DNA from: Nesterenkonia alkaliphila
GTDB taxonomy: Bacteria > Actinomycetota > Actinomycetes > Actinomycetales > Micrococcaceae
Length of the DNA stretch: 37,665 nt
Reading direction: 5' to 3'
Assembly (NCBI RefSeq): GCF_009758175.1
Contig: NZ_WRPM01000099.1
Span: 1-37,665 of the forward strand
The first letter of the stretch is position 1. Each line of letters starts with the position of its first letter. The notes below the pieces were generated by a model, which saw only the letters and a program-made list of their open reading frames with translations, was not told where the DNA came from and searched no databases. Positions 1 through 15,481 of the stretch are shown here, in pieces. Made by a program: the position numbers and the translations under genes.

Positions 1-1224
1 GAGACGGGCTAGAGCTTGCTGGTTATCAGCCGTGACTTTCAGTGCCTCATCTGAGACCAGTGAGAGTCTCATGCTGTAGCGGTGTCGGGCGAGTGGACGG
101 GGGCTTATTGCTTCGATTGCTCCCTGGTGAAGAGGGCCCAACAAGTTGTTGAGTGGGAAGTAGAGGCTTGCTACGTTTTTGGGGCAGCTGCGTCGAGAAT
201 CTGGGAAGCACTCGTCAAGGATATGCCTCGGCACATCGACACCCTGACCTTGGGTAGGATACATGTTGACGCCAATTTGGGGATGGGCGTTCAGCTCAAT
301 AATGGCGTAGTTGCCTTCCACTTGACCCGCGTGGTCGTTGAAGAGAATATCTACCCCTGCGCAATAGAGATCAGGTATTGCCTGTGTTGCTTTCACCGCG
401 GCTTGCCGGAGCTCGCGCGGCAGGTTCCAAGTAACATCTATGACGTCGCCACCGGCGCTTGCATTAGCTGCGCTACGTAACTGAAGGTACTCACCTCGGG
501 CCGGCACGCTGGAAAGAGTATGACCCTGACGTCTCAAGTAGTCCTCTACTTCACGGTCATGCTTGATGAGCCCTTTCGAAAGGAACGGGTTCTTTCGGCG
601 AAGAGCATTTTTGCGTTCCACCAGTGTTTCTACGGTGCTCTCCCCATCTCCGAGTATGTTGGCTGGAACCCGCTTGCATGCAGCGACCACGCGCGAACTA
701 TAGACCAATACTCGATAGTCCTCGCCGACTATATGTGATTCCATGACGATAGGCGCAGGTCCATCCATTTCAATGAGGTCGCGGTAGCGGTCCTCCAGCA
801 TCTGCTCGTCAGAGATTCCGGAGAATACTCCATGACCCATACTTCCTTTTAGAGGTTTGATGACAACCGGATACCCGATGCCCCGTGCTCGTTCCTTCAG
901 TACAGAGAGTGTGTCTTGTGAAGGTTCGATGATGGCGGACTCGGGAACTGGGATTCCTGCGGCGCGCAGTTTTGCATTTGTTTTGAACTTATTATTCGCG
1001 ACCCTGACAGCGTCCCACGTAGTCATATGTGGCCGGGAACGGATGAAAGTAACGGCGTTACCTGAGTCATCTTGAATCCGATACTTACGCAACTCTGGAT
1101 CCAGGAACGTCACCTGCAATCCGCGCCTCCAAGCTTCGAGTGCAATGGTGTAGCTGGTGAGCTTTCCGCCGAAACCGTCCTTCACCACCTCCGGCTGGAA
1201 ATGCTCGGGCCACTCTGCCTCCAT
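1..1224 (-). CDS. ATP-grasp ligase, cyanophycin-synthetase/RimK-like (partial, runs off left edge)
   Basis: Read on the minus strand, an uninterrupted frame of 408 codons runs from ATG at 1224 to the window edge with no stop, so the 3' end is missing. The ATG has an AGGAGG five bases upstream (1230-1235). An in-frame ATG at 1302 is possible but has no such site. The protein shows ATP-grasp landmarks: GYPVVIKPLKG with Lys123, a glycine loop at 127-133, LRSAAN at 249-254 followed by GGD at 258-260, and the metal-binding E310-x-N312 pair. The family joins a carboxylate, activated as acyl phosphate, to an amine. A new strand-helix segment begins at about residue 382 (RYSMRLSLVSDEA) and resembles the C-terminal domains of the two ligases at 1356-3708. 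G+C is only about 51% by hand count over 541-660, suggesting acquisition from elsewhere. The substrate cannot be told from sequence. Confidence 0.85.
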   Translation of the reverse strand, partial: MEAEWPEHFQPEVVKDGFGGKLTSYTIALEAWRRGLQVTFLDPELRKYRIQDDSGNAVTFIRSRPHMTTWDAVRVANNKFKTNAKLRAAGIPVPESAIIEPSQDTLSVLKERARGIGYPVVIKPLKGSMGHGVFSGISDEQMLEDRYRDLIEMDGPAPIVMESHIVGEDYRVLVYSSRVVAACKRVPANILGDGESTVETLVERKNALRRKNPFLSKGLIKHDREVEDYLRRQGHTLSSVPARGEYLQLRSAANASAGGDVIDVTWNLPRELRQAAVKATQAIPDLYCAGVDILFNDHAGQVEGNYAIIELNAHPQIGVNMYPTQGQGVDVPRHILDECFPDSRRSCPKNVASLYFPLNNLLGPLHQGAIEAISPRPLARHRYSMRLSLVSDEALKVTADNQQALARL

Positions 1225-1355
1225 AAGGACCTCCTGCTGACCTGGGGCTCCGATGATGCAAACTTGGCACACTCTACGCCTTATTCGTGAGAACACTCTC
1301 ATTATGGTGAGTCAGCCTTCCCAGAACCAGGTGTAGCCCAGAAAGTCTACGGCCA
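1225..1355. promoter_or_regulatory. divergent promoter region between two ATP-grasp genes
   Basis: This 131-base gap separates two divergently oriented ligase genes and must carry promoters for both. On the minus strand a CATAAT hexamer (1301-1306) could be a -10 for the left gene. On the plus strand TTGGCA (1264-1269) resembles a -35, but no convincing -10 follows at 17 bases. No strong palindrome is visible. Confidence 0.35.
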
Positions 1356-2666
1356 ATGATCAGGAACGCGATGCACTGTGAGCGAGTGCGCACTCCGAAT
1401 CAGTATTCCAGCGCTGAGCTTTTCACAGGCTTGGGGCGTGCTCCGCTGACCACGGTCTTACTGGATCGGGATTGTCTGGCTTATGGCCTTTCCGTCTTCA
1501 GGACATCAGCACAGACGTTGATAGTCGTGGACGCTCAGGGAAACCAGATGGGTTTCAGCAAGGCGGGCTCGGTGATCAACTCCAGGCCGGCAGCCCCGCT
1601 GACCCAGGACAAGCACTCCACCCGTCTGATTCTCCAGGATCAGGACGTTCCGGTGCCAAAAGGAATGCGTTTCACCCCACAGGATCTGGAAGCTGCGGTT
1701 GACTACGCCTCGGAGGAACTGGGTTACCCGGTGGTGGTCAAACCTCTGCACGGAACCCAAGGCAAGGGTGTGCTCACCGGGATAGGTGATGAATCCGAGC
1801 TGAGGTGGGCATTCGGCGAGCTCAGCGGTGACACGGCACAGGACGAAATCGTCGTTGAGGAACAGATCGAAGGGGAGGCCTACAGGATTATTGTGGTCAA
1901 TGGCCGGGCAGTGTCGGCGCTCATCAGCCGTCGTTGTGCGGTGACCGGTAACGGTTCTCAGACTGTACGTCAACTCGTGGAGGAGCGGCAGCAGGTGCGC
2001 CGCGGCAACCCTCATCTGATGAGCCGCCCCATCCACGTCGACGAACGACTGGAACATCTGCTGCAGCGGCAGCACACCGCCCTCGACAGCGTCCTGGAAG
2101 CGGGTCGCACCGTGCACGTCACCTACGGGTCGAACACCAGTCAAGGCGGAGAGCCCGAGCAGGTACTCGAGAAGCTGCATCCCTCGATATTGGAAGCCAG
2201 TGCCCGCGCCGTGGAGGCCATTCCCGGTCTTGGCTTCGCCGGGGTCGACTTCATCATCCCTGCTCCAGACCGTCCGCTGACTGAACAGCGTGCCGGTATC
2301 TGTGAGATCAACTCAGTGCCGGCAGTAGACTCCCACGAATACCCCCTCTACGGCGCTCCAGTCACCGTCGCCCAGGAGCTGGTGAGGACCTCGGCCGAAC
2401 ATGCTGGAGTCAGCCTGAGCAGCTACCGCACCACCGTAGCGCTAAAGGTCACGATTGACTGCCCCGGCGCCCGAAAAGAGTTCAAGGATTGGCTGGCCGC
2501 ACGGGCTGAGCAGATGGGCCTGAAAGTCAGTTTCCGTCTCCTCAGCCTCAGAACCGTTCACGGAAAGGTCAACGGACCTGCGGAGGAAGCAGCCGCATGG
2601 CTCGCCCATGCCTTCCAAAACCCGCATCAGGTGACGCCACGCAGTCTGGAGGTCCACCATGTCTAA
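1356..2666 (+). CDS. ATP-grasp ligase with extra C-terminal domain
   Basis: 436 residues. ATP-grasp features are GYPVVVKPLHGTQGKG with Lys129 at about 123-137, the linker-binding segment IVVEEQIEGEAYRIIV (165-180), and CEINS with E317 and N319. It therefore probably binds Mg-ATP and forms an amide bond. It departs from the canonical cyanophycin-type pattern: where the two best-conserved paralogues here have LRxxxN then GGD, this one has VTYGSNTSQGGE (255-266), without the arginine and the aspartate. After residue 355 a beta-alpha-beta domain of about 80 residues follows, possibly acylphosphatase- or ferredoxin-like in fold but without the acylphosphatase catalytic Arg/Asn. The start could instead be ATG 1371, which has AGGA at 1362-1365. 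The next gene overlaps it by 8 bases, implying coupled translation and perhaps a heteromeric complex. Confidence 0.8.
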   Translation: MIRNAMHCERVRTPNQYSSAELFTGLGRAPLTTVLLDRDCLAYGLSVFRTSAQTLIVVDAQGNQMGFSKAGSVINSRPAAPLTQDKHSTRLILQDQDVPVPKGMRFTPQDLEAAVDYASEELGYPVVVKPLHGTQGKGVLTGIGDESELRWAFGELSGDTAQDEIVVEEQIEGEAYRIIVVNGRAVSALISRRCAVTGNGSQTVRQLVEERQQVRRGNPHLMSRPIHVDERLEHLLQRQHTALDSVLEAGRTVHVTYGSNTSQGGEPEQVLEKLHPSILEASARAVEAIPGLGFAGVDFIIPAPDRPLTEQRAGICEINSVPAVDSHEYPLYGAPVTVAQELVRTSAEHAGVSLSSYRTTVALKVTIDCPGARKEFKDWLAARAEQMGLKVSFRLLSLRTVHGKVNGPAEEAAAWLAHAFQNPHQVTPRSLEVHHV

Positions 2667-3708
2667 ACCGTCCGCGCCCCTGCACTCACCGGACTCCCTC
2701 ACCGCTGCGGAATACGACTCCTGGTGCCTGCGGGCAGAACTCCTGGCCCGGCAGATGTCTATAGCGAACTACCCGGGAGACGTGGTCTTCACCATTGAGC
2801 CCGCGGCTACCAGACTGGCCTTCACCCAAATAGGCTCCTACGGGGTGACCTATGCAGGCATGGGATTGGACAAGACGTCCCCGAAGACCTGGAAGCTGCT
2901 CAAGCACGCGGGGCTGCCGGTACCGCACTACAAGGTTTTCAGCAGGGATAAGGGCCATGAGGCACAGGGCTTCGCACAGAAGCATGGTTACCCAGTGGTG
3001 GTCGCAGGCGTTTCGGGTGCCTCGCGCCGCACCGCTGCAGACAAGGATGAGCTCACTGAGGCACTGCACACACTGCGGAGCAAGTCCCGGGGCCAGCTCC
3101 TGGTCAATGCCTCGGTCAATGGACCGGCCCTGAGGTTGCTGGTGCATCAGGACCAGGTGGTGGCGATCAGCCAGAGCCGGAGCAGGGCCTATCGTTTGGA
3201 TGAGGTCTCCGAATCACTGAAGAACTTTGCTGTTGCGGCGGTGCGGGCCATCCCCGGCATCGATACAGCGGGAGTCACCATCGTGGCTCCGAGCCCGGAG
3301 GAGCCGCGGGCCGAGAAGAACGCCGTACTGGAACGTGTCATGCACCACCCGCACCTTCGGGACTACGTCGGAAGATCAGATGAGGCTGCGCTGGCGCTGG
3401 CCGGAGAACTGATCCTGGCGGAGGCCCGTAGGATCGGCGCAGCCCTGCCTGAGCCCGCCCCACGGGGGAACTATGAGATCAGGCTCTGCTCAGTTCCATC
3501 CCCAGCCAGCTTCGCAGCAAAGCTCAGCGAGCTCATCGGAGCATTTGGCAGCGTTCACGTGCACAGTGGTCCCGAGCAGAAGGAGAAAGGGTTGTACGTG
3601 CAGCTGGAAGCTGCTTCTGCTGATGCGGCCCTGATCATCACCCAGGCGCTGGGCGGCCTTCCAGGCGGGGGTTCCGCTCACGCGGTCACCGTCCGGCTGA
3701 TGGATTAG
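2659..3708 (+). CDS. degenerate ATP-grasp homologue, probable pseudoenzyme partner
   Basis: 349 residues, start ATG 2659 with GGAGGT five bases upstream (2648-2653), overlapping the preceding ligase by 8 bases. It follows the same plan as that ligase: LPVPHY at 86-91, GYPVVV at 110-115, VRAIPGIDTAGVTIVAP at 195-211, and a C-terminal beta-alpha-beta domain from about 271. The catalytic positions are gone: the VVVK lysine is Ala116, the glycine loop reads GVSGASR, the E-x-N metal pair is E225-R-V227, and about 90 residues containing the RVPAN/GDG and LRxxxN...GGD segments are deleted. The frame is open and has a good ribosome site, so this is not simple decay. I infer a non-catalytic subunit or regulator of the adjacent ligase. 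A divergent ATP-grasp with altered chemistry is the alternative. Confidence 0.75.
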   Translation: MSKPSAPLHSPDSLTAAEYDSWCLRAELLARQMSIANYPGDVVFTIEPAATRLAFTQIGSYGVTYAGMGLDKTSPKTWKLLKHAGLPVPHYKVFSRDKGHEAQGFAQKHGYPVVVAGVSGASRRTAADKDELTEALHTLRSKSRGQLLVNASVNGPALRLLVHQDQVVAISQSRSRAYRLDEVSESLKNFAVAAVRAIPGIDTAGVTIVAPSPEEPRAEKNAVLERVMHHPHLRDYVGRSDEAALALAGELILAEARRIGAALPEPAPRGNYEIRLCSVPSPASFAAKLSELIGAFGSVHVHSGPEQKEKGLYVQLEAASADAALIITQALGGLPGGGSAHAVTVRLMD

Positions 3709-3754
3709 ACTCGATCGGTCAGCTTTTCGGTTCGAAACAAGAGGAGATCCTGAG

Positions 3755-4459
3755 ATGGCGGAGGCGCCACTGGTGGGGATTCTGGGCGGGATGGGACCGG
3801 CAGCGACAGTGGACTTCTACTCCAAGCTCATCGCTGCCACTCCTGCCTCCACGGATCAGGAGCATCTACGGGTGATGATCTGGGCCGATCCTTCTGTGCC
3901 GGACCGTTCCCGGGCTATTACGGGCGGGGGAGAAGACCCCACCCCGCAGTTGGTCGCCGGTGCTCAGCAGCTGAAGGACGCCGGGGCTGCCTTCTACGTG
4001 GTGACTTGCAACGGGGCCCACGCGTTCCTGCCCCGGGTCCGTGAGCAGGTGGACCTGGAGTACCTATCCATCGTCGAGGTCACTGCCGAGCACCTGTCTG
4101 CCTTGCCCTATGTCTCATCCGCTGGGCTGTTGGCCACCGACGCCACTCTGACTGCTGGGCTGTATCAGGAGAGCCTGGCGGCGTCGAACATCACCCCGGT
4201 GCTGCCGGACGCAGCGGGGCAGCACGCGGTGATGGAAGCGATTTACGCAGTGAAGGCCGGCAGCCTCACCGCCGAGCAGGAGCGCGCTCTGGTGGAGGTC
4301 GCGGAGACACTAGTGGACGCTGGAGCTGATGTGATTGTGGCAGCCTGCACTGAGATTCCGCTGGCGCTCTCAGCTGAGGAGTCGCCACGCCCCCTCGTCG
4401 ATCCCTCGATCCTGCTGGCCAACCAGGTGGTCCAGAAGGCCGCCTCCCTGGCGAGTTGA
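3755..4459 (+). CDS. aspartate/glutamate racemase family protein
   Basis: 234 residues, start ATG 3755 with GAGGAG at 3741-3746. The N-terminus GILGGMGPAATVDFY is diagnostic of the Asp/Glu racemase (RacX/YgeA-like) family. The two catalytic cysteines of a cofactor-independent racemase are present: Cys85 in VTCNGAHA and Cys198 in AACTEIPL. Family members interconvert L- and D-forms of acidic, or in some cases other, amino acids in the cytoplasm. The exact substrate is not readable here. It lies 46 bases after the degenerate ATP-grasp gene and 3 bases before the MFS gene, so it is probably part of the same operon and could supply a D-amino acid to the ligases. A stand-alone role in D-amino-acid metabolism is also possible. 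Confidence 0.88.
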   Translation: MAEAPLVGILGGMGPAATVDFYSKLIAATPASTDQEHLRVMIWADPSVPDRSRAITGGGEDPTPQLVAGAQQLKDAGAAFYVVTCNGAHAFLPRVREQVDLEYLSIVEVTAEHLSALPYVSSAGLLATDATLTAGLYQESLAASNITPVLPDAAGQHAVMEAIYAVKAGSLTAEQERALVEVAETLVDAGADVIVAACTEIPLALSAEESPRPLVDPSILLANQVVQKAASLAS

Positions 4460-4462
4460 ACT

Positions 4463-5686
4463 GTGGATAGCCATAGGATCCCACCTGAGCTGAAGGTACT
4501 GATTGCCTCGGCATTCATCATCGCCATTGGGTTTGGCATTGTCGCCCCGATCCTGCCGCAGTACGCCTCTGATTTCGGGGTCTCTGCTTTCGCTGTCTCG
4601 GCTGTGGTGTCAGCGTTCGGGCTTTTCCGCCTGCTCTTCGCACCAGCGTCCGGGAAGCTGACCCACATACTGGGGGAGACCCCGGTGTATGTCATCGGCC
4701 TGCTGATCGTAGCCGCCTCGATGATTGCCACCGCATTCGCACCGAACTTTGAGCTTCTGCTGCTCTTCCGCGCGCTAGGAGGTATCGGCTCCACGTTCTT
4801 CACAGTCTCCGCGATGACGTTTCTGGCGCGTAAGTCGCCTCCCCAGATACGAGGACGAGTCTCCGGGGCGTACGCTTCAGCCTTCCTGATCGGGAACGTG
4901 GCAGGGCCACTGCTAGGATCCAGTCTTCTGCTGCTCGGACAGCGAGCGCCGTTCCTGGTCTACGGTGTCGCCCTGATCATCGCCGCTGCCCTAGTGTTTT
5001 TCATGCTGCGGAAATCCCGGTTGGAAGATCTGAACAACAAGGTCACACTCCAACGCGCCACTTTGGCTGAAGCCTGGCAAAGGCCCAGCTACCGGGCAGC
5101 GCTGACTTCCGGATTCACCAATGGGTGGGCTACGTTCGGCGTGCGCAATTCGATCGTTCCGCTGTTTGCGGCCTCTGCGTTTGTCGGCGGGGGACTCATC
5201 ATCGACTCTAGTCAGTTGGCTGGAGTGGCACTGGCGACATTTGCAGCGGGAAATGTTGTTACAGTGCTCACCCTGGCCAAGCGGTCTGACCAGTGGGGAC
5301 GGCGACCCCCCATCATGGTGGGTTTGACGATAGCCGCAGTCTCCACCGGTCTGCTGGGCCTGGCCCCAGAGCCGTGGGTGCTGCTGGTGCTGAGCCTGAT
5401 AGCAGGTGCCGGAACTGGACTCATTGTCCCGGCCCAGCAGGCGGCCGTGGCCGACATTGTGGGCGAGGGGCGCAATGGGGGGCCGGTGGTTTCGACATTC
5501 CAAATGACCCAGGACCTCGGCGGGATCCTGGGCCCGCTTCTTGCCGGCTTCCTCGTAGACCATTTGAGCTATGCTTGGGCGTTCGGGATCACCGGTCTAG
5601 TCATGCTTGTAGGCGCAGCAGCTTGGACAGCCGCGCCAGAAACGCTGCCCCCAAGAAGACCTGAACCCCCAGACACTGAGGACTAG
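4463..5686 (+). CDS. MFS transporter (drug/metabolite exporter type)
   Basis: 407 residues with about 12 hydrophobic segments in two halves and a charged cytoplasmic linker near residues 178-205. The first helix starts at about residue 10 (LKVLIASAFIIAIGFG). RKSPPQIRGRVSG (about 124-136) fits the motif-B region of multidrug-type major facilitators, and SDQWGRRPPIMVGL in the second half repeats motif A. Such proteins usually export small molecules by proton antiport. The GTG start lies 3 bases after the racemase stop with no Shine-Dalgarno sequence, so translation is probably coupled. In context it is the likely exporter of, or self-resistance pump for, the product of the ligase cluster. Substrate unknown. 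Confidence 0.85.
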   Translation: MDSHRIPPELKVLIASAFIIAIGFGIVAPILPQYASDFGVSAFAVSAVVSAFGLFRLLFAPASGKLTHILGETPVYVIGLLIVAASMIATAFAPNFELLLLFRALGGIGSTFFTVSAMTFLARKSPPQIRGRVSGAYASAFLIGNVAGPLLGSSLLLLGQRAPFLVYGVALIIAAALVFFMLRKSRLEDLNNKVTLQRATLAEAWQRPSYRAALTSGFTNGWATFGVRNSIVPLFAASAFVGGGLIIDSSQLAGVALATFAAGNVVTVLTLAKRSDQWGRRPPIMVGLTIAAVSTGLLGLAPEPWVLLVLSLIAGAGTGLIVPAQQAAVADIVGEGRNGGPVVSTFQMTQDLGGILGPLLAGFLVDHLSYAWAFGITGLVMLVGAAAWTAAPETLPPRRPEPPDTED

Positions 5687-5691
5687 GAAGC

Positions 5692-5713
5692 CCTGGAATC
5701 ACGGTTCCCCAGG
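5692..5713. terminator. weak hairpin between convergent genes
   Basis: CCTGG at 5692-5696 can pair with CCAGG at 5709-5713 across a 12-base loop, in the 54-base gap between the convergent MFS and ATP-grasp genes. The stem is short and no T-run follows on either strand, so this is only a tentative terminator. Confidence 0.2.
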
Positions 5714-5740
5714 TTGGAGACTGGCCCGGGGGACCTGTCA

Positions 5741-6883
5741 CTATCTGAGTTGTTTGTCCCTGAACCAGCGCCAGCGGCGGCGAAGAATGCGGAGGTTGCG
5801 CCGAACTTCTGCACGGACCTTCTGCTGTGCGGTGAGTTCAGAGTCGGAAGTGTCCGTGGGCTTGCTTTCAGGAAACATGCTTGCCACCAGAATTTCTGCC
5901 ACATCTCTGCTCTGGCCTACCCACGGGAAATGGTGACCGGTCATCATGGGAGTGCTGTTGACTTCCAGCACATAGGGTTCTGAGCCTTGGCCCTCCCGGG
6001 GTAGCAGCATATCGATGCCGGCCAAGCGGAGCCCGGGAATCGCCCGCGCGACGTTCTCAGCCAACTCGACCTCCTCCGGACTCAGGTCATCTGTGGCGTC
6101 AACGCCGTCGCCGCCGCTGTGCACATTCGAGTTGGGTCTCAGCCACACCTGACGGCCCTGTTCAGGGACAACATCCAGGTTCAGCTGTTGCTTTCCCAGC
6201 TCCCGTGTCACGACCTCGTCGACTGGTATCTGGTAGTGCACGGGATTCTGGGACTCTGTGCGCAGTCGATTTTTCTCCTCAATCAACTCCGAGACTGTAG
6301 AGGCACCATCCCCTATGACATTGGCAGGCACCCGGCGGGCTACGGCTGCGACCTTGCCGTACACCAACAGCACCCGGTGCTCCACACCGGGGATGAAGCG
6401 CTCCACCAACACATCATCGGAGATCGCTGATACTGCTGTGAAGGCTTCTTCAAACTCGGCGAACTCAGTGATTCCGACATGTACCGAGCTGCCCATGCCC
6501 TCGTTCGGCGGCTTGACCACCACGGGTGTCTTCTGAGCGGCCCACGCCCAGGCTTCAAGGACCTGATGATGCTGGAAGGCCACGTTCTCCGGCGCTCTCA
6601 CCCCATAGTTGAGAAGCAAGCGACTGGTGACGTCCTTATAGCGTGTGCAGCGGCTGGCGAGCACGCTGTTCAGATTTGATCGCGCTCCATCAAACCAGAC
6701 GCGTCGCTTACCCACCTGCATGCTCAGCCGCCGCTTGGCATCTGGCGCTACCGGGATGCCCCTGGCCATCGCCCGGTTTGCCAGCAAGGCACTGGTTAAC
6801 CCGCCCTTGATGTCATTCTTGACCAAATATTGATGTGTATCTGACAGAGAAGCAGGTACTTGTTCAGTGTTGGTTTGGCGCAA
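5741..6883 (-). CDS. ATP-grasp ligase, cyanophycin-synthetase-like, complete active site
   Basis: 380 residues on the minus strand. The start is TTG at 6883, preceded by GAGAGG eight bases upstream. It is chosen because the segment NDIKGGLTSALLANRAMARGI aligns with the N-terminus of the partial ligase at 1-1224. All landmarks are present: VVVKPPNEGMGS with Lys124, ERFIPGVEHRVLLVYGK (161-177), RVPANVIGDG (184-193), LRPNSN (248-253) with GGD (257-259), and E307-x-N309. HHFPWVGQSRDVAEILVASMFPE is the ending seen in the ATP-grasp domain of cyanophycin synthetases. Unlike the other three it lacks the extra C-terminal domain and instead has a very basic tail (356-380, many Arg), perhaps for nucleic-acid or membrane contact. 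It is convergent with the racemase-MFS genes and belongs to the same island. Confidence 0.85.
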   Translation of the reverse strand: MRQTNTEQVPASLSDTHQYLVKNDIKGGLTSALLANRAMARGIPVAPDAKRRLSMQVGKRRVWFDGARSNLNSVLASRCTRYKDVTSRLLLNYGVRAPENVAFQHHQVLEAWAWAAQKTPVVVKPPNEGMGSSVHVGITEFAEFEEAFTAVSAISDDVLVERFIPGVEHRVLLVYGKVAAVARRVPANVIGDGASTVSELIEEKNRLRTESQNPVHYQIPVDEVVTRELGKQQLNLDVVPEQGRQVWLRPNSNVHSGGDGVDATDDLSPEEVELAENVARAIPGLRLAGIDMLLPREGQGSEPYVLEVNSTPMMTGHHFPWVGQSRDVAEILVASMFPESKPTDTSDSELTAQQKVRAEVRRNLRILRRRWRWFRDKQLR

Positions 6884-7010
6884 ATCGATAACCTCTCAGC
6901 CAGGCATTCAACGACAGCGTCATAAACTACGCGTGGTAGCTGGTGGTCAGTTGGGCAAATGATGGCTGTTAGCTGACGGTCCTAAGTGGGAGAACGCGTT
7001 GGGTCAGGAA

Positions 7011-7038
7011 AGTCCCGGACCCACCTGGATCCGGGACT
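7011..7038 (-). terminator. hairpin downstream of amt
   Basis: AGTCCCGGA (7011-7019) and TCCGGGACT (7030-7038) form a perfect 9-bp stem around a 10-base loop, 37 bases beyond the amt stop. No U-run follows on the minus strand, so it may act as a non-canonical terminator or 3'-end stabiliser. Confidence 0.5.
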
Positions 7039-7074
7039 CCTGCGACATCCGTCAGTTACGAATATCTGGAAGCA

Positions 7075-8316
7075 CTATCTCACCATGGGCTGCTCCGCAG
7101 AGGGCATGATGTAGGCCTCCGCCTGGTGGGCAGCGGAGTCGATGCCCTCCTCCTCGACCTGCTCGTCCACCCGGAACCCGATGGTCTTGTGGATGGCCAT
7201 CCCGATGAGATACGTGGCACCGAAGGCAAAGACCAGAGTCACCACACAGGCCACCACCTGAGCGATCAGCAGCTCGGCGCCGCCGCCCACCAGCAGGCCA
7301 GTGCGGCCCTCACCGTAGATGTCCTCGTAGCCGAAGAGGCCGATCGCAATGGTGCCCCACAGGCCGGCCACAAAGTGCAGGCCGACCACGTCCAGAGTGT
7401 CGTCATATTTGCCGTACTTGAAGTCCACAGCGAAGCAGCAGATCGCACCGGAGACAGCACCCAGGAGGATCGCGCCGATCGGCTGCACGTGAGCCACAGC
7501 CGGGGTGATAGCCACCAGACCGGCCACGATGCCGGAGGCCGCCCCCACCGGGCTGGGCTTCTTGCCGCGGGCCCACTCGGTGAGCAGCCAGGCCGTCAGC
7601 GCAGCGGCCGGAGCCAGCATAGTGTTCAGCCAGTTCAGGGAGATCTCGTCAGTGCTGCCGGCCTCACCGAGGTTGAAGCCGAACCAGCCGAACCACAGGA
7701 TCGAGGCACCCAGCAGCACCAGCGGCACGTTGTGCGCCTTGGTGGGGGCGAAGTTCGAGCGCGGGCCGATCACCAGCACCAACGCCAGCGCAGCCAGGCC
7801 GGCGCACATATGCACCACCAGGCCGCCGGCGAAGTCCACGGCCTCGCCCACGGCGTCACCGATCAGACCGCCTTCCACCAGGAGGCCACCGTCGCCCCAG
7901 ACCCAGTGGGCCAACGGGGCGTAGACCAGGGTCAGCCAGATCGGCACAAAGATCATCCAGGCGGAGAACTTGGCGCGGTCAGCGATAGCACCGGAGATCA
8001 GTGCCGTGGTGATGATGGCGAAAGTGCCGCCGAAGCCCACCCACACCAGCCCATCGCCGGCCTCCTCGAAAGAGGTGAAAGCGGCAAAGTTGTCAGTCGG
8101 GTTGCCGAACAGCCCGCCGATCGAGCTGCCGAAGGAGATCGCATCGCCCCACAGGGTCCAGGTGATCGCCACCAAGCCCATAGCCGCGAAGCTCATCATC
8201 ATCATGTTGACGGCGGATTTGGTCTGCGACAGACCGCCGTAGAAAAGTGCCAGACCAGGGGTCATGAACAGCACAAAGGCGCCGGCCACGACTACCCAGA
8301 TAACTTCTGCTTCCAT
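7075..8316 (-). CDS. amt: ammonium transporter Amt
   Basis: 413 residues from ATG 8316, which has GGAGGG six bases upstream. A frame extension to 8337 is possible but lacks a site. It is an 11-helix Amt/MEP/Rh channel that moves ammonium across the cytoplasmic membrane. Visible family features are the early FYGGLSQTKSAVN segment, the signature DFAGGLVVHMCAGLAALAL with the first pore histidine, VVGLHFVAGLWGT with the second, and the C-terminal regulatory arm GFRVDEQVEEEGID. In many actinobacteria amt is followed by glnK and glnD between ftsY and ffh. Here neither is present and an ATP-grasp gene follows, so the PII partner must be elsewhere or absent. A GlnR-like box lies upstream at 8417-8432. 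Confidence 0.97.
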   Translation of the reverse strand: MEAEVIWVVVAGAFVLFMTPGLALFYGGLSQTKSAVNMMMMSFAAMGLVAITWTLWGDAISFGSSIGGLFGNPTDNFAAFTSFEEAGDGLVWVGFGGTFAIITTALISGAIADRAKFSAWMIFVPIWLTLVYAPLAHWVWGDGGLLVEGGLIGDAVGEAVDFAGGLVVHMCAGLAALALVLVIGPRSNFAPTKAHNVPLVLLGASILWFGWFGFNLGEAGSTDEISLNWLNTMLAPAAALTAWLLTEWARGKKPSPVGAASGIVAGLVAITPAVAHVQPIGAILLGAVSGAICCFAVDFKYGKYDDTLDVVGLHFVAGLWGTIAIGLFGYEDIYGEGRTGLLVGGGAELLIAQVVACVVTLVFAFGATYLIGMAIHKTIGFRVDEQVEEEGIDSAAHQAEAYIMPSAEQPMVR

Positions 8317-8416
8317 CAGTGTCCCTCCAGAAAACATCTCTACTCACCAGTGACCCTCACCGGTGCGAGCTGGGTTCCATCGTTCACCTGACGTGTTTCA
8401 CCACGGCGGCCCTTAT

Positions 8417-8432
8417 GTTTCCGTTCAGTTAA
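8417..8432 (-). promoter_or_regulatory. GlnR-like half site upstream of amt
   Basis: On the minus strand the sequence reads TTAAC, six bases, GAAAC, close to the actinobacterial GlnR a-b half-site pair (GTnAC-N6-GAAAC). It lies about 100 bases before the amt start, a typical target of GlnR. The second pair seen at strong sites is absent, so this is a weak or chance match. Confidence 0.35.
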
Positions 8433-8460
8433 ATCTCTCCGGCGAAAACGTATTTAAACC

Positions 8461-8513
8461 ACGACGCCGCCCCACTGAACTCCCGGAAACCCGGGTGAGT
8501 GGGGCAGCGTCGT
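8461..8513 (-). terminator. rho-independent terminator of ftsY
   Basis: Positions 8461-8476 pair with 8498-8513 over 16 bases with a single C/A mismatch (8468/8506). A smaller CCCGG/CCGGG hairpin can form in the loop. On the minus strand the stem is followed by GGTTTAAATACGTTTTCG, which is T-rich. It starts 21 bases beyond the ftsY stop and also insulates amt from ftsY transcription. Confidence 0.8.
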
Positions 8514-8533
8514 ACTGGTTATTGAGAGCTGGG

Positions 8534-9721
8534 TCACTCCTCCAGGAGCGCGTCCACGAACTGCTCTGTGTCAAAGGGAGCCAAGTCATCGGGACCCTCG
8601 CCGAGCCCGATGAGCTTCACCGGAACTCCCAGCTGCTTCTGGATGGCCACCACAATCCCGCCGCGGGCGGTGCCGTCCAGCTTGGTCAGCACGATCCCGG
8701 TGACATTCACGACTTCGGAGAAGACCTTGGCCTGGCTCAGTCCGTTCTGCCCCGTGGTGGCATCGAGCACTAGGAGCACCTCGTCCACCTGGGACTTCTT
8801 CTCAATGACTCGCTTAACCTTGCCCAGCTGATCCATCAGGTTGGCCTTGTTCTGCAGCCGTCCGGCGGTATCCACCATCACCACATCGGACTCCAGCTCG
8901 ATGGCCTTCTCCACAGCGTCAAAGGCTACTGAGGCAGGATCAGCGCCCTCCTTCTCCGAGGAGACAGTGGGCACGCCCACCCGGGAGCCCCAGGTGGTCA
9001 GCTGTTCGGCGGCTGCGGCGCGGAAGGTGTCGGCGGCACCGAGGATCACATCCTTGTCCTCGGCAACCATCACCCGGGCCAGCTTGCCCACAGTGGTGGT
9101 CTTACCCACCCCGTTGACACCCACCACCAGCACTACGGATGGCCGGCCGGGATTCTTCACGTTGAGGCTTCGGTCGAATGCCGGGTCCACCAGTTTGATC
9201 AGCTCCTCACGGAGCATAGCCTTGACCCGCTCAGGATCCTTAGAGCCCTCCACAGTGACCCGCTGGCGCAGAGTCTCCACCAGCTCAAAAGTGGGCTCGG
9301 CGCCCAGGTCCGCGGAGAGCAGCGTCTCCTCAATCTCATCCCAGACATCATCATCGATCTCGTCGCGGCTCAGCAGAGCCAGCAGAGACTTGCTGAAGAT
9401 GTTGTTGGACTTCACCAACCGGGCGCGCAGCCGGGCCAACCGGGTCTCCGGGGCCTCCGGCTTCTCCAGAGTGTCAACGGTGACATCCGGGGCCTGCGTG
9501 TCGAGATCCGCGGGGGTGCCCTCCGGCCGGTCCGTGACCAGCGTGGCGCCGCCGGGCTCATCCGGGGCACCGGGGGGCAGGTCATCGGCGTCCCGGTCAG
9601 CCGGGAACTCCCGGCGCGGCTTCCCAGCGGTCAGCGGGCGTCCCTTGACCAGGAACAGGCCCAGCAGACCCACCAGCACGGCGGCTAGAACAATGAAGGT
9701 GATAAAGACTGAAGTTTCCAT
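8534..9721 (-). CDS. ftsY: signal recognition particle receptor FtsY
   Basis: 395 residues from ATG 9721; an in-frame GTG at 9739 is the alternative. FtsY is the SRP receptor GTPase that docks ribosome-nascent-chain complexes with Ffh at the membrane translocon. An N-terminal hydrophobic helix (about residues 5-25) gives actinobacterial FtsY a membrane anchor. It is followed by an acidic linker (36-92), the N domain (about 95-185) and the G domain: P-loop GVNGVGKT (201-208), DTFRAAAAEQL, DTAGRL and TKLDGTARGG. Upstream there is no smc gene, the usual neighbour in relatives, but two unrecognised genes. The partner ffh lies nearby in the opposite direction. A strong terminator follows. Confidence 0.97.
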   Translation of the reverse strand: METSVFITFIVLAAVLVGLLGLFLVKGRPLTAGKPRREFPADRDADDLPPGAPDEPGGATLVTDRPEGTPADLDTQAPDVTVDTLEKPEAPETRLARLRARLVKSNNIFSKSLLALLSRDEIDDDVWDEIEETLLSADLGAEPTFELVETLRQRVTVEGSKDPERVKAMLREELIKLVDPAFDRSLNVKNPGRPSVVLVVGVNGVGKTTTVGKLARVMVAEDKDVILGAADTFRAAAAEQLTTWGSRVGVPTVSSEKEGADPASVAFDAVEKAIELESDVVMVDTAGRLQNKANLMDQLGKVKRVIEKKSQVDEVLLVLDATTGQNGLSQAKVFSEVVNVTGIVLTKLDGTARGGIVVAIQKQLGVPVKLIGLGEGPDDLAPFDTEQFVDALLEE

Positions 9722-9791
9722 TACCCAAGATTGTCCCACAGCGGCCGCGCGCGAGGGTGAGTGGGGAGAGCGTGAGCGGGGAACCGCCGGT

Positions 9792-10466
9792 TCAGCGCCT
9801 GAAGCGGCGCCGGATGTTGCTCAGTGCGTTCCGGGCCTGCTGGGCGGCGGGGGAGACCCGCTCGCCCATCCGGTGGATCAGGCTGGAATTGGTCTCCTGG
9901 GCCAGCACCTGCAGTTTGTCATGGGCTGACTCCGCAGACTCCGCGGCAGCGGTGATACCGGCCTCAAGCTCCTCGATGCGTGCGTTCTGCGCCGCGATCC
10001 GGGCATCCCGCTCGGCCAACTGGGTGGCGTGGTGCTCCCTGGCATCGCGCAGCTGCTGCTCCAGCTCAGCCTGCTTGTTCTCATGTTCCTTCAGCGTTCC
10101 GGACATACCCTCCAACAGACCGATGAGCTCCTGCAGCTCCGCCGCCGAGGGTGCAGCCTCCACCACCGATTCAGCCTGCTTGACCCGCTCCTCCAGGGCG
10201 GCATAGTCCACCTCGCGGACCTGCTCCAGGCGCTCATAGACACTGCGCAGCTCAGCAACCAGATCCTGCTGGTGGCCCAGCAGTGCGGTCACCACCTGCT
10301 GGGCGTTCTCCCCGATATCGGTGGGCGGCTCGATCTGCTGATCCTCCTCATCAAGCAGATCCTCGAACTCAGGGTCAGCCAGCGGAAAGCTCTCCGCCTC
10401 CTGGGCACTTGCTGCGGTGGCGGCGTCGTTCTCAGGAGCCTGCTGGGGGTCCTTATGCTCGGTCAT
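9792..10466 (-). CDS. coiled-coil protein of unknown function
   Basis: 224 residues, start ATG 10466 with AGGA seven bases upstream, 9 bases after the preceding gene's stop. I do not recognise a family. The N-terminal 60 residues are acidic and low in complexity (DLLDEEDQQIEPP). Residues of about 60-180 are rich in Glu, Gln, Ala and Leu with heptad character typical of a long coiled coil (for example ELEQQLRDAREHHATQLAE). The C-terminus ends in a basic RRRFRR. There is no signal peptide or membrane helix. The layout, acidic head, coiled coil and basic tail, recalls DivIVA-like or septum-associated scaffolds, but nothing specific supports that. It is co-directional with ftsY and probably in one transcript with the next gene upstream. 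Confidence 0.7.
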   Translation of the reverse strand: MTEHKDPQQAPENDAATAASAQEAESFPLADPEFEDLLDEEDQQIEPPTDIGENAQQVVTALLGHQQDLVAELRSVYERLEQVREVDYAALEERVKQAESVVEAAPSAAELQELIGLLEGMSGTLKEHENKQAELEQQLRDAREHHATQLAERDARIAAQNARIEELEAGITAAAESAESAHDKLQVLAQETNSSLIHRMGERVSPAAQQARNALSNIRRRFRR

Positions 10467-10475
10467 GACTCGATC

Positions 10476-10964
10476 CTACTTCCGGCCCAGCAGGATGTCG
10501 TCGAAACTGCGTTTGTGCCAGGGCGCTGGCTGCGGCTCCGCTGCACTCACCACGGGGTTCTTCCCGGTGGCCGGCCTGCTCACCGGCCGGGCAGCGGCCA
10601 ACCGGGCCCGGGTCTCGCGTTCGGCAATGGTATCGGCAACCTGCTTCGGCAGTGCAGCCTGACCGATATGGGCCGGCACCTGGAGGGTGCGCATGTCGCC
10701 CTCAGTGAGTGCGCGCAGCCCGGCTGCGGGGAAGTTCAGCAGCTGCTCCACAAACTCGGCGCGCTGGCCGAAGGAGGCGCTGCGGGCCCGGTGCGCGGCG
10801 GAGACCGCGATCGGAGAGGTCCGGCTGCGCACCAGCTCCGGCAGCTGCGGGTGTGAGGCCAGTGCCCGCCCAGCGGCACGGTGAGCAGATTCCGCCGCAC
10901 GCAGGTACCCCAGATGGGCCCCCAGGGCAGACTGGATCACCTGTGCGTCAAGATTTTGGCTCAC
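10476..10964 (-). CDS. conserved hypothetical protein, no recognised domain
   Basis: 162 residues from GTG 10964. There is no Shine-Dalgarno sequence. A TAGAGT hexamer ends six bases before the GTG (10971-10976), which fits a leaderless transcript. The protein is Ala/Arg-rich and mostly helical. It has no hydrophobic segment, and ends in a short motif WHKRSFDDILLGRK after a Pro/Ala-rich linker. I cannot assign a function. It is the first gene of a minus-strand run with the coiled-coil gene and ftsY, divergent from ffh, so it may share regulation with the SRP genes. Confidence 0.65.
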   Translation of the reverse strand: MSQNLDAQVIQSALGAHLGYLRAAESAHRAAGRALASHPQLPELVRSRTSPIAVSAAHRARSASFGQRAEFVEQLLNFPAAGLRALTEGDMRTLQVPAHIGQAALPKQVADTIAERETRARLAAARPVSRPATGKNPVVSAAEPQPAPWHKRSFDDILLGRK

Positions 10965-11073
10965 GTTGTTACTCTAGGGGTTTGACAGTTCACCGCGCGG
11001 CCCGAGGCTTCAAGCTCGGGCTGAACGGGGTACGACGACGCCACCTACAGTCTCGTAAGGAAACGCACCAGAC

Positions 11074-12666
11074 GTGTTCAACTCGCTCTCTGATCGCCTC
11101 ACCGCGACGTTCAAGAACCTCCGCGGCAAGGGAAAGCTCACCGAGGCCGATATTGACGGCACCGCCCGGGAGATCCGGCGGGCCCTGCTGGACGCCGATG
11201 TGGCGGTCCCGGTGGTCCGCGAGTTCATCGCCCGGATCAAAGCCCGTGCCCTGGGCTCGGAGGTCTCCCAGGCGCTGAACCCCGGCCAGCAGGTGGTCAA
11301 GATCGTCAACGAGGAGCTGGTCGGCATCCTCGGCGGTCAGACCCGCACCCTGGAGTTCGCCAAGCAGCCTCCCACCATCATCATGTTGGCAGGTCTGCAG
11401 GGTGCCGGTAAGACCACTCTGGCCGGCAAGCTGGCCGCTCATCTGAAGAACCAGGGCCACACCCCGGTGCTGGTGGCCTGCGATCTGCAGCGGCCCAATG
11501 CGGTCAAGCAGCTGCAGGTCGGCGGTGAGCGCGCCGGTGTCCCGGTCTACGCCCCGCATCCGGGCGTCAGCTCCGAGGCCGAGGTTCCCACCGGCAACCC
11601 GGTGACGGTGGCACGAGACGGGGTGGCCCACGCCAAGGAGAAGCTGCACGATGTGGTGATCATCGACACCGCCGGCCGGCTCGGCGTGGACCAGGAGCTG
11701 ATGACCCAGGCCGCGGATATCAAGGCTGCTGTGGGCGCCCACGAGACCCTCTTCGTCATTGACGCGATGATCGGTCAGGACGCGGTCAACACCGCACAGG
11801 CCTTCAACGAGGGCGTGGACTTCACCGGCGTGGTGCTCACCAAGCTCGACGGCGACGCCCGCGGCGGCGCAGCCCTCTCAGTGGCCTCGGTCACCGGCAA
11901 ACCCGTGATGTATGCCTCCACCGGCGAGGGTCTGAAGGACTTTGAGGTCTTCCACCCTGACCGGATGGCCCGCCGCATCCTGGACATGGGCGATATCCTC
12001 TCGCTGATCGAGCAGGCCGAGGCCAACTGGGACCGCGCCGAGGCCGAGAAGATGGCCAAGAAGTTCGCCGACCAGGAGGACTTCACCCTGGAGGACTTCA
12101 GGGCCCAGATGCAGCAGATCAAGAAGATGGGCTCCATGAAGAAGCTGCTGGGCATGATGCCCGGCGCGGCCGGGATGCGCCAGCAGCTCGAGCAGTTCGA
12201 CGACTCCCAGCTGGACCGGGTGGAGGCCATCATCAACTCGATGACCCCCCATGAGCGCAACGCCCCCAAGATCATCAACGGCTCCCGCCGGGCCCGCATC
12301 GCCAAGGGTTCCGGAGTCCATGTCTCTGAGGTCAACCAACTGCTGGAGCGGTTCGGCCAGGCTGCCAAGATGATGAAGAAGATGGCCTCCGGCGGGGGGA
12401 TGCCCGGAATGCCGGGAATGCCCGGCGGCGCTATGCCGGGGATGCCCGGTGCAGGCGGCCACGGCGGAAAGAAGAAGGCCAAGGGCAAGGGAAAGAAGCA
12501 GAAGGGCAAGTCCGGCAACCCCGCCAAGGCAGCTCAGCAGGCCCGCGAGGCCGAGCTGCAGCGCAGCCAGAAACGGATGGACGGATCCAGCTTCGGTGCA
12601 GGGAAGAACGACTTCAACCCGGAGGAGCTCAACCTCCCCAGCGGTTTCGAGAAATACCTGAAGTAG
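11074..12666 (+). CDS. ffh: signal recognition particle protein Ffh
   Basis: 530 residues, GTG start with AAGGAAA at 11057-11063. Ffh is the GTPase subunit of the signal recognition particle. It binds hydrophobic signal sequences and 4.5S/scRNA and delivers ribosomes to FtsY. The N and G domains carry GLQGAGKTTLAGK, DLQRPNAVKQL, DTAGRL and TKLDGDARGGA. The M domain (about residues 325-435) is methionine-rich, with MKKLLGMMPG and the RNA-binding region SRRARIAKGSG. The C-terminal tail has repeated GMPGMPG units, a lysine-rich stretch and a conserved GFEKYLK end. It is divergent from the ftsY-side genes and begins the long plus-strand run of translation genes. Confidence 0.98.
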   Translation: MFNSLSDRLTATFKNLRGKGKLTEADIDGTAREIRRALLDADVAVPVVREFIARIKARALGSEVSQALNPGQQVVKIVNEELVGILGGQTRTLEFAKQPPTIIMLAGLQGAGKTTLAGKLAAHLKNQGHTPVLVACDLQRPNAVKQLQVGGERAGVPVYAPHPGVSSEAEVPTGNPVTVARDGVAHAKEKLHDVVIIDTAGRLGVDQELMTQAADIKAAVGAHETLFVIDAMIGQDAVNTAQAFNEGVDFTGVVLTKLDGDARGGAALSVASVTGKPVMYASTGEGLKDFEVFHPDRMARRILDMGDILSLIEQAEANWDRAEAEKMAKKFADQEDFTLEDFRAQMQQIKKMGSMKKLLGMMPGAAGMRQQLEQFDDSQLDRVEAIINSMTPHERNAPKIINGSRRARIAKGSGVHVSEVNQLLERFGQAAKMMKKMASGGGMPGMPGMPGGAMPGMPGAGGHGGKKKAKGKGKKQKGKSGNPAKAAQQAREAELQRSQKRMDGSSFGAGKNDFNPEELNLPSGFEKYLK

Positions 12667-12824
12667 TAGTAGAGTAGGCAGGTACTTTGCTCAGGTTCGG
12701 CGAGCACCCTCTACCCTCGCCGGCCTGGCCAAATGTTCACGCACGTGGCCCGGAGCTGTTTGCATACCCCCACGCGGTCCCGGCAGAGACGTGCACCCCA
12801 ATACCTACAGGAGTAACCACACAA

Positions 12825-13250
12825 GTGGCAGTCAAGATTCGTCTGAAGCGCATGGGCAAGAAGTTTGCCCCCCAGTACCGCGTAGTCGTTGCCGACTCCC
12901 GCGCCAAGCGCGATGGCAAGAACATCGAAGAGATCGGCAAGTACCACCCCACCGAGGAGCCCTCGTTCATCGAGATCGACTCGGAGCGGGCGCAGTACTG
13001 GCTCAGTGTGGGCGCCCAGCCCTCCGAGCAGGTCCAGCAGCTGCTGACCATCACCGGTGACTGGCAGAAGTTCAAGGGCCTCGAGGGTGCTGAAGGCACC
13101 CTGAAGACCAAGGCTCCCAAGGAGGAGTTCGTGCTCTCCTCCAAGGGCTCGGTCATCGTGGACAAGGCTGAGGAGCCCGCCGCAGAGGAGGCCCCTGCCG
13201 AGGCTGAGACCCCTGCTGAGGAAGCATCCGAGGAGAAGACCGAGGCATGA
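12825..13250 (+). CDS. rpsP: 30S ribosomal protein S16
   Basis: 141 residues. The start is GTG 12825, giving [20 protein letters not shown], the family N-terminus, with AGGAG at 12809-12813. S16 is a small-subunit assembly protein that binds 16S rRNA. Residues of about 1-85 are the S16 fold ([34 protein letters not shown]). The rest is an acidic Glu/Ala/Pro tail, an extension common in actinobacterial S16. An in-frame upstream extension exists but does not resemble S16. The 3' end overlaps khpA by four bases (ATGA). Confidence 0.97.
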
Positions 13251-13504
13251 GCACCGACGCTGCACTCACCGATGCACTGGAGCACTTGGTCCGCGGGATC
13301 GTCGACTCACCCGATGAGGCCGAGGTCCGCCGCAAGAACGGCCGCCGCTACGACACCCTCCAGGTCCGGGTCAGCCCCGAGGACCTGGGCCGGGTGATCG
13401 GCCGCGCCGGCCGCACTGCCAAGGCTCTGCGCACGGTGGTGGCAGCGCTGCCCGGCGGCCATGACGTCCGGGTGGACGTGGTCGACACTGACCGCCGCCG
13501 CTGA
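13247..13504 (+). CDS. khpA: KH-domain RNA-binding protein KhpA
   Basis: 85 residues starting at an ATG that overlaps the rpsP stop (ATGA), so translation is coupled. The protein is a single small KH domain: [18 protein letters not shown], then [25 protein letters not shown] with the GRAG form of the GxxG nucleic-acid-binding loop. KhpA is a global small-RNA and mRNA binding factor. In Firmicutes it partners KhpB/EloR in controlling cell elongation. The position between rpsP and rimM is the standard one in actinobacteria. Confidence 0.93.
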
Positions 13505-13522
13505 CGCCATCGGGTGAGACCC

Positions 13523-14092
13523 ATGGCGCACACTGAATATCACGACGACCCGCAGTCATCGTCCCAGCAGGGCGAACGGCTGCGGGTCGCTCGCATCGGC
13601 AAACCGCACGGGATCCGCGGGGAAGTCACCGCCCAGCTCTACACCGATGAGCCCGCCGAGCGCCTGGCCCCGGGCGAAACTCTGATCCGGGTTCCCGGGC
13701 CGGAGACCCATGACCAGGGGACCACGCCGCTGACAGTGACCTCCCAGCGGTGGAACAAGAGCATCTGCCTGTTGGGCTTCGCGGAGATCCGCGACCGCAA
13801 TGCTGCTGAGGCCCTGCGCGGGACCATGCTCTACGTGGACGTTGCGGCCGAGCCCGAGGACGACGAAGAGGGCTGGTACTCCCACGAGTTGGAGGGTATG
13901 AGCTGCCTGGGGGCAGATGGGCGCGAATACGGCGTCGTACTGGAACTGCTCACCGGGGATGCTCAGGATCTGCTGGTGGTCAGAACTGCTGCCGGGCAGG
14001 AGGTCATGGTGCCGTTCGTGGAGGAGATCGTCCCAGAGATCGATCCGGAGGCCCGGCGCATCACGCTGACCCCGCCCGAGGGGCTGTTCTGA
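13523..14092 (+). CDS. rimM: ribosome maturation factor RimM
   Basis: 189 residues from ATG 13523, preceded by GGGTGAG; an in-frame GTG at 13514 has no ribosome site. RimM binds S19 and helps process the 16S rRNA 3' domain. The N-terminal domain begins RVARIGKPHGIRGEV, the family signature, and ends near residue 95. The C-terminal PRC-barrel follows (EGWYSHELEGMSC, VMVPFVEEIVPEIDPEARRI). It lies 18 bases after khpA in the rpsP operon. Confidence 0.95.
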   Translation: MAHTEYHDDPQSSSQQGERLRVARIGKPHGIRGEVTAQLYTDEPAERLAPGETLIRVPGPETHDQGTTPLTVTSQRWNKSICLLGFAEIRDRNAAEALRGTMLYVDVAAEPEDDEEGWYSHELEGMSCLGADGREYGVVLELLTGDAQDLLVVRTAAGQEVMVPFVEEIVPEIDPEARRITLTPPEGLF

Positions 14093-14177
14093 GTGAGCCC
14101 AAAGCGGTTCTTCTGCGTTCTGCACAGGGGTATTTCCCCATGCACTGTGCACAACCCGATGCGGAATGAGGTGCTGG

Positions 14178-14924
14178 GTGCGGATTGATCTGATCTCGAT
14201 CTTTCCGGAGTTCTTCGAGGTCCTGGACCTCTCATTGATCGGCCGGGCCCAGCAGGAGGGCCTGCTGCAGATCCGGCGGCACAATCTGCGCGACTACACC
14301 GCCGATAAGCACCGCACTGTGGACTCTCCGCCCGCCGGCGGCGGGGCCGGAATGGTGATGAAGCCCGAACCCTGGGCGCAGGCCCTGGAACAGGTGCTCG
14401 CCGAGACATCAGGCAACGAAGACGCCGCCGAAGAGCTCGGTGCCGGTAAGACGGGTGATTCCCGCCCCACCCTGATCATCCCGACACCTTCGGGGGAGGT
14501 CTTCACCCAGGGCCATGCCCAGGAACTGGCCGGGCATCAGCACCTGGTATTCGCCCCGGGGCGCTTCGAGGGGATCGACGAGCGGGTTACCGAATGGGCA
14601 GCCGGGCACTTTCAGGTGCGCAGACTGAGCATCGGCGACTATGTGCTCAATGGGGGAGAGGCCGCCGCAGTGGTGATGATCGAGGCCATCACCCGGCTGA
14701 TCCCCGGGGTGATCGGCAACGAGGCCTCATTGGAGGAGGAGTCCCACACTGATGGGCTCCTGGAGTACCCGGTCTACACCAAACCAGCTCAATGGCGTGG
14801 TCACCAGATCCCGGAGGTGCTGCTTTCTGGCAACCATGCCAGGATCGCAGACTGGCGCAGGGCCCAGGCCGAGGCCCGCACCCAGCAGACCCGGCCCGAT
14901 CTCTGGGCGCGATGTCAGTCCTGA
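14178..14924 (+). CDS. trmD: tRNA (guanine-37-N1)-methyltransferase TrmD
   Basis: 248 residues. GTG 14178 is chosen because it yields the family N-terminus [12 protein letters not shown] and has GAGGTG at 14168-14173; an in-frame ATG at 14166 would add four residues. TrmD places m1G at position 37 of tRNAs to prevent frameshifting, using S-adenosylmethionine bound in a trefoil knot. Motifs are [43 protein letters not shown] and the late [15 protein letters not shown]. The 3' end overlaps the convergent sseB-like gene by 10 bases. Confidence 0.97.
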
Positions 14925-15358
14925 GCGGCTTCAGCCTCGGCGAGCTGCTCTTCCACAAAACTGCGCATCTGAGCCATCTGCTCGGCCGGGATCAGGAACT
15001 GGTGTTCAGCCATGGGGTCCAGCACCACGCCCACATCCAGGGTGCGCACTAGGGTGATTCCATTGGTCTGCACCACAAAGGGAGCCTGCTCCTTGTGCTG
15101 TTCGGCCTCCTCCTGAGAGCTGAACAGCACCGGCAGCGGCTTGCCATCACCGTCCTGGACCACCAGCAGGTTGGCGCCCTTGTCATTATCCGGCTCCTCA
15201 GAGCTGGCTGCGTAGACCGTGCTGTTGAGGAAAGCGTTGAGCACTGTGGTGACATCATCCTGCAGAAAGCCCTCATCAGTGCGGTTGGCCGCGGCTGCCT
15301 GCAAGGCCTGCTTCAGCTCGGGCACGGTCTCTTCAGTGGTCTCAGCGGTCTCAGTCAT
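14915..15358 (-). CDS. SseB-family protein
   Basis: 147 residues from ATG 15358, with GAGAG about nine bases upstream. The middle of the protein matches the SseB N-terminal domain: [34 protein letters not shown] and [22 protein letters not shown]. The family is widespread in actinobacteria but its biochemical role is not established. The N-terminal 30 residues are acidic and Thr/Glu-rich. It is alone on the minus strand inside a plus-strand cluster and overlaps trmD tail to tail, so the two transcripts may interfere. Confidence 0.8.
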
Positions 15359-15481
15359 TCCTGATCACTCTCAATACTCTGGTTTCTCTGGATCATTCGG
15401 TCCCCACCCACGCTACGGCAGAGCCCCTGCCTGTGCGAGGGCTGTCCGGCCCAGCTGGCTGGATTGGGCGGAGAGCGAAAA

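Follow-up and report, generated by a model that had tools for sequence, protein, structure and literature searches.

What is made by a group of four ATP-grasp-like genes that lie together with an amino-acid racemase and a transporter at one end of a contig of Nesterenkonia alkaliphila? The window analysed here is the whole of that contig (NZ_WRPM01000099.1, 37,665 nucleotides; C3 of the 3.32-Mb draft genome G000), and the island in question occupies positions 1-6883. The answer is sought in gene content, the state of the active sites, co-conservation and the insertion site. The reading preferred here, with a probability of about 0.5, sees the island as one portion of a gene cluster that is shared horizontally and makes an acidic polymer of the cell surface, composed of amino acids and probably of sugars of the uronic-acid type, with a role like that of teichuronopeptide. 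A surface glycopeptide is favored because it puts the largest number of parts to use: the clusters hold glycosyltransferases and a sugar dehydrogenase as well as PGA_cap domains and, in two instances, TupA-family ligases.

Gene content and base composition of the island

The listing of open reading frames (ORFs) contains six, g1 to g6, at 1-6883, with the same coordinates as in an earlier model-made reading of the letters (hereafter the sequence-only reading). They are followed by two genes which we take, from their protein sequences, to be amt and ftsY. MFS stands for major facilitator superfamily:

1..1302, minus strand: g1, ATP-grasp ligase, C-terminus cut off by the contig start (RimK, 51.5 bits)
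1356..2666, plus strand: g2, ATP-grasp ligase, its tail acylphosphatase-like and degenerate (structure and profile matches)
2659..3708, plus strand: g3, putatively catalytically dead ATP-grasp paralogue, overlapping g2 by 8 bases
3755..4459, plus strand: g4, Asp/Glu-type racemase (NCBIfam: cysteate racemase CuyB; matches to NF052483 and Asp_Glu_race)
4463..5686, plus strand: g5, MFS transporter, resident of the amt-smc interval (MFS_1, 199 bits in Pfam)
5741..6883, minus strand: g6, ATP-grasp ligase with two possible starts (TTG at 6883, ATG at 6769)
7075-8316, minus strand: amt, right island border, with the same neighbors in relatives
8534-9721, minus strand: ftsY, right island border, with the same neighbors in relatives

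The genes g2, g3, g4 and g5 run head to tail with intergenic gaps of at most 46 bases. ORFs and Pfam/NCBIfam matches confirm the ATP-grasp genes, the racemase and the MFS gene where the sequence-only reading had placed them, and its hand counts of G+C were reproduced (50.8% at 541-660; 68.3% at 12001-12060). The island as a whole has the lower G+C that had been claimed, 60.0% vs. 65.9% in the remaining window, and the minimum among 6883-base windows outside it is 64.6%. G+C at third codon positions is 57-77% across g1-g6 vs. 81-88% in amt, ftsY, ffh and lepA, the only other genes measured. Elsewhere in the window, the minus strand carries an open frame of 1087 codons at 28364-31627, possibly the antisense shadow of a plus-strand gene.

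Active ligases and a degenerate partner

Pfam and NCBIfam assign g1, g2 and g6 to the ATP-grasp family, and these three proteins keep all seven active-site residues (nucleotide-binding Lys, Gly-rich loop, Mg-binding Asp, Glu and Asn). The protein g1 comprises 434 amino acids (aa) here, and its homologues L024_10 and L026_11 comprise 469 and 471 aa. For g3, the ATP-grasp match is weak (CPSase_L_D2 at 20.0 bits, cut-off 19.8; a cyanophycin synthetase profile at 6e-10), the nearest fold is the ATP-grasp half of cyanophycin synthetase, and a scan with g3 alone gave no matches. It keeps one of the seven active-site residues checked and fails the ATP-grasp residue test. The sequence-only reading had counted four ATP-grasp paralogues; g1, g2 and g6 stand as intact members, and the lost residues of the degenerate g3 rule out, as judged from sequence, a set of four working ligases.

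In a residue table of 50 selected proteins, the five core g3 proteins have all lost the Lys, the first Glu, the Asp and the metal Glu, and three of them the Asn; one of two further g3-like proteins retains Lys and Glu. The table also holds a PGA_cap-type ligase with two active-site residues lost and a truncated g1 homologue. A second family of divergent ATP-grasp partners accompanies sister ligases that combine ATP-grasp and acylphosphatase domains, a pairing read by eye from locus tables without a count over all loci. In this partner family the Asn is replaced in 12/12 proteins (by Ser in 11), and the Lys is kept in 9/12, the first Glu in 12/12 and the Asp in 11/12. Going by these residues, the term “dead” applies to g3, and the divergent partners are not surely dead. 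All seven genes of the g2 clade are paired with a g3-like dead paralogue, once as a fusion, which is unexpected.

The structure matches of the ligases are nearest to cyanophycin synthetase and GshAB (for g2, the nearest solved structure is cyanophycin synthase 7txv, 124 bits), in agreement with the earlier proposal of amide bonds formed without a ribosome or a nonribosomal peptide synthetase. Against a profile built from the acylphosphatase tails found in sister ligases, the tail of g2 scores 34 bits. Identity of g1, g2 and g6 with the known cyanophycin enzymes is ruled out by scores under the curated cut-offs: they reach 195-228 bits (g6, 227.5 bits) with cut-offs of 850 (TIGR02068) and 877 (NF010623). 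The N-acetylglutaminylglutamine synthetase profile TIGR03103 (cut-off 569) scores 149.7 bits for g1, 110.8 for g2 and 150.4 for g6.

In a tree built by a quick method without bootstrap, whose deep branches are weak, g1, g2 and g6 each fall into a subfamily of their own (Shimodaira-Hasegawa-like approximate likelihood ratio test [SH-aLRT] values of 100, 99 and 99). The g1 subfamily contains six rows and the g6 clade four, including N. alba and two Jiangellaceae proteins. The Jiangellaceae proteins in the g6 clade, together with the patchy distribution, suggest horizontal transfer of the ligases.

Insertion site and homologous clusters

In G000 the island extends beyond the window, and smc and amt-ftsY are its probable borders. 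On another contig of this genome, C88, smc is accompanied by three further genes of ATP-grasp type, of which one is divergent. Towards the contig end these are an enolase/PGA_cap/ATP-grasp fusion (1453 aa), the divergent ATP-grasp partner (381 aa) and a protein of 899 aa that combines ATP-grasp and acylphosphatase; beyond smc, in the other direction, come ATPgrasp_ST, a gene of 170 aa, one like Asn synthase and one like a glycosyltransferase. As the 400-base ends of C88 and C3 share no exact word of at least 10 bases, their adjacency is deduced from relatives. In G001, G005, G010, G016, G023 and G026 the stretch from smc to amt is on a single contig and contains ligase genes, and N. alba (G004) shows two contigs ending like those of G000. 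In G006 the ligases adjoin smc, with no amt in the stretch covered. G007 fits poorly: one contig has smc with one ligase and continues into other genes, and a different contig holds ligases, MFS and amt. The amt-smc interval of G003, G013 and G020 contains the MFS gene and no ligases. The large ligase cluster of G003 is at another place, 425-475 kb; at C1:441-454 kb (L029, local 6250-19334), four proteins of 901-974 aa with two glycosyltransferase domains each alternate with ATP-grasp and coiled-coil genes. Gene calls at all loci come from a codon-usage script that overlooked some genes and whose calls in G016 are broken. Ligase content is variable among the species of this one genus. Fourteen of 30 Nesterenkonia genomes count as ligase-bearing by a g2 match at E<=1e-45, a threshold chosen after viewing the list (gap from 8.9e-46 to 4.8e-38).

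The MFS gene is found in 26 of the 30 genomes. Its occurrence at this site also without ligases indicates that it is the resident and the ligases are the guests, and g5 is probably outside the ligase pathway. An MFS exporter had been part of the sequence-only reading: the gene is there, and its role as a dedicated exporter is rejected on account of this distribution and of the ligase-free amt-MFS-smc order of G003, G013 and G020.

Homologous clusters were found in distant actinobacteria via the ATP-grasp-acylphosphatase and partner families: one in Haloechinothrix alba and six in Jiangellaceae, with Phytoactinopolyspora alkaliphila counted once. Among the ATP-grasp-acylphosphatase matches listed (best 80 of 242 relatives), H. 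alba and P. alkaliphila show 65 and 67% identity, five Nesterenkonia 48-53% and others at most 38%. The partner family occurs in 8/394 sampled genomes of the class (3/137 genera) and in 6/22 Jiangellaceae genomes (2/6 genera). All seven distant clusters share one order: Asn-synthase-like gene, small gene, GT-B glycosyltransferase, ATPgrasp_ST, racemase, ATP-grasp-acylphosphatase and divergent ATP-grasp partner. A nucleotide-sugar dehydrogenase is near each of them; that of H. alba is a piece of 95 aa at the edge of the locus. Glycosyltransferases and nucleotide-sugar dehydrogenases accompany the ligases, also in neighbor-gene statistics that count related species as independent. The best specific profiles of the G003 dehydrogenase are those of UDP-N-acetylmannosamine dehydrogenases, under cut-off. 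In G022, a genome counted among those without the island, the immediate neighbors of a g1 homologue (46%) are a nucleotide-sugar dehydrogenase and a counterpart of the 597/888-aa gene of L024 and L030 (L194, C1:575000-590000, local 8983-13362).

The glycosyltransferase-like gene of G000 is weak in Pfam (E 0.002-0.007) and the H. alba gene has no match there; the predicted structure of the former is GT-B (predicted local distance difference test score, 83.9). In an alignment read by eye, with wrong slices in two of its 13 rows, the fused enolase domains of G000, G009, P. alkaliphila and G290 show what we take to be the expected metal-ligand and lysine motifs. The H. alba domain deviates at one expected lysine, and in the ligases of the acylphosphatase type these motifs look lost.

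Both catalytic cysteines of the racemase g4, already claimed from the letters, are present (VTCNGAH, AACTEIP). The protein matches Asp_Glu_race (141 bits, Pfam), its nearest solved structure is the aspartate racemase 1jfl (172 bits), and it passes the cysteate racemase CuyB profile NF052483 with 258.5 bits (cut-off 190; 221.5 and 236.5 bits for two racemases of distant clusters). The suggested D-acidic residue gains plausibility from an Asp-type racemase at the same cluster place in all seven distant actinobacteria. Within Nesterenkonia, the racemase lies in the cluster or next to one of its genes in five ligase genomes (G000, G009, G010, G006, G025), in G006 as a stop-bearing remnant and in G025 on a 5.3-kb contig with a glycosyltransferase-like gene. 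Three of the ten ligase-free racemase genomes were viewed, with the gene in the amt-smc interval (G029), beside a Lit-domain gene (G015) or elsewhere (G020). In the racemase tree, G000, G029 and G010 are grouped (81/99), and a long branch with 100/100 support splits Nesterenkonia from the distant-cluster racemases; the two lineages therefore seem to have recruited the racemase independently. Scattering of the genes in relatives, which the sequence-only reading had named as its refutation, is seen in part: racemase and MFS occur also without ligases, and the ligases stay clustered.

Candidate products and known systems

For the substrates, the polymer, its location and the order of steps we infer the following scheme. 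Active ATP-grasp enzymes would turn a carboxylate into an acyl phosphate and then, with an amine, into an amide, a chemistry that follows from the family. The ligases would link amino acids with one another or with carboxyl groups of uronates in a glycan, which the glycosyltransferases and the nucleotide-sugar dehydrogenase would supply, and g2 would form a two-subunit ligase with its dead paralogue g3. The racemase, by its type, would provide D-Asp, D-Glu or D-cysteate as an acidic amino acid of D form, the enolase-type domains on some sister ligases may epimerise residues, and the Asn-synthase-like enzyme may amidate carboxyls.

Several observations weigh against such a polymer. Within the genus, the racemase was not found to track the ligases (5/14 ligase genomes vs. 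10/16 others), and in G029, a close relative, the interval from amt to smc holds a racemase with 91% identity to g4 and neither ligases nor an MFS match (L137, C2:30000-44000, local 6394-8008). The TupA family is non-specific, as it occurs in 25/30 genomes (0/14 controls), also without the island. PgsB (TIGR04012), classically the ligase for poly-gamma-glutamate, exceeds its cut-off in 0/30 genomes (one in a control set containing Bacillus subtilis); known poly-gamma-glutamate enzymes are rejected on this ground, and a peptide part would need to come from ATP-grasp enzymes. The seen part of the G000 island has no dehydrogenase, the nearest homologue being on contig C1, and no dedicated polymer exporter was recognized among the proteins scanned.

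A small peptide-like product with a D-acidic residue, made without a ribosome and exported by the MFS protein, would explain why one block unites several active ligases of different kinds with a racemase and a transporter, why g2-g5 are tightly arranged head to tail and why ligase content differs between species. This product, which the sequence-only reading had preferred, is nevertheless unlikely: it leaves the glycosyltransferases and sugar dehydrogenases of the homologous clusters unexplained, which makes it less likely than a surface polymer, and the MFS gene is widespread and occupies the same site without ligases. Alternatively, the ligases may only attach single amino acids as amides to a uronic-acid surface polysaccharide, without any polypeptide. 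ATPgrasp_ST, which is associated with sugar transfer, and the dehydrogenase in the clusters suit this alternative, and hexuronic amides of capsules are known (PMC11800379). Such decoration is doubtful, however, as the ligases resemble polymer and peptide ligases, PGA_cap and enolase domains suit peptides better, and there are many ligases per locus.

Glycosyltransferases are again left unexplained if the product is a compatible solute in soluble form, for instance a dipeptide like N-acetylglutaminylglutamine amide (NAGGN), or an intracellular cyanophycin-like store. The matches of g1, g2 and g6 to the two synthetase profiles (111-150 and 195-228 bits) and the Asn-synthase-like partner, which is also part of the NAGGN trio, speak for it. 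The scores lie far below the curated cut-offs of 569, 850 and 877, GNAT and Mur-ligase domains were not found in the ligases scanned, and a solute or store is very improbable.

Beyond the preferred surface polymer, we tentatively propose an undescribed class of such polymers in salt- and alkali-living actinobacteria: possibly a PgsB-independent analogue of teichuronopeptide with pairs of active and divergent or dead ATP-grasp enzymes, fused enolase-type epimerase domains and D-acidic residues from the racemase (perhaps sulfonated, as D-cysteate), which would spread horizontally and diversify next to smc. The link to saline or alkaline habitats rests on a few named species, N. alba, P. alkaliphila and H. 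alba. P. alkaliphila is an alkaliphile by name and H. alba a halophile; N. alba is alkaliphilic according to a cited title (PMC4585250). The surface-polymer reading gives a set of ATP-grasp genes without names a product that can be tested, and filled and empty sites within one genus offer a ready strain comparison. The active/inactive ligase pair would be a little-known design for ATP-grasp peptide synthesis. Among open-licence papers, none was found that joins Nesterenkonia and ATP-grasp or contains four of six terms chosen for the gene set, which does not imply absence in print.

Teichuronopeptide of the alkaliphile Bacillus halodurans C-125 consists of amino acids and glucuronic acid and forms an acidic polymer in the wall; in alkaliphilic Bacillus, an acidic polymer of this location is considered to contribute to a less alkaline interior of the cell (PMC8153356). 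The Nesterenkonia product, if correctly read, would be an actinobacterial analogue built by other enzymes. TupA-family ATP-grasp genes lie inside two of the clusters, those of H. alba and G010. The systems differ in that none of the six window proteins matches the TupA family and in the PgsB result. Teichuronopeptide synthesis is also not known to involve a racemase, enolase domains, an Asn-synthase-like gene or dead ligase partners. The single TupA match of G000 is on contig C52, where a g1 homologue (48%) is found near this TupA-family gene, a GT2 gene and glmM- and glmS-looking genes (L024, C52:100000-116029, local 5727-15947).

The cyanophycin synthetases CphA1/CphA2 provide, with their ATP-grasp half, the nearest match to g2 in structure and to g3 in fold, whereas the scores of the island ligases stay far from the cut-offs, a Mur-ligase half is not seen, and acylphosphatase-like tails and enolase domains are present instead. 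Operons with several ATP-grasp amidoligases, making peptide-modified polymers or metabolites, were reportedly predicted by Iyer and colleagues (2009). In lactic acid bacteria, the D-aspartate ligase/racemase pairs AslA/RacD act on peptidoglycan. They likewise bring an ATP-grasp ligase together with an Asp racemase, but consist of one ligase without a glycan cluster, in contrast to the island described here with its varying content within a single genus.
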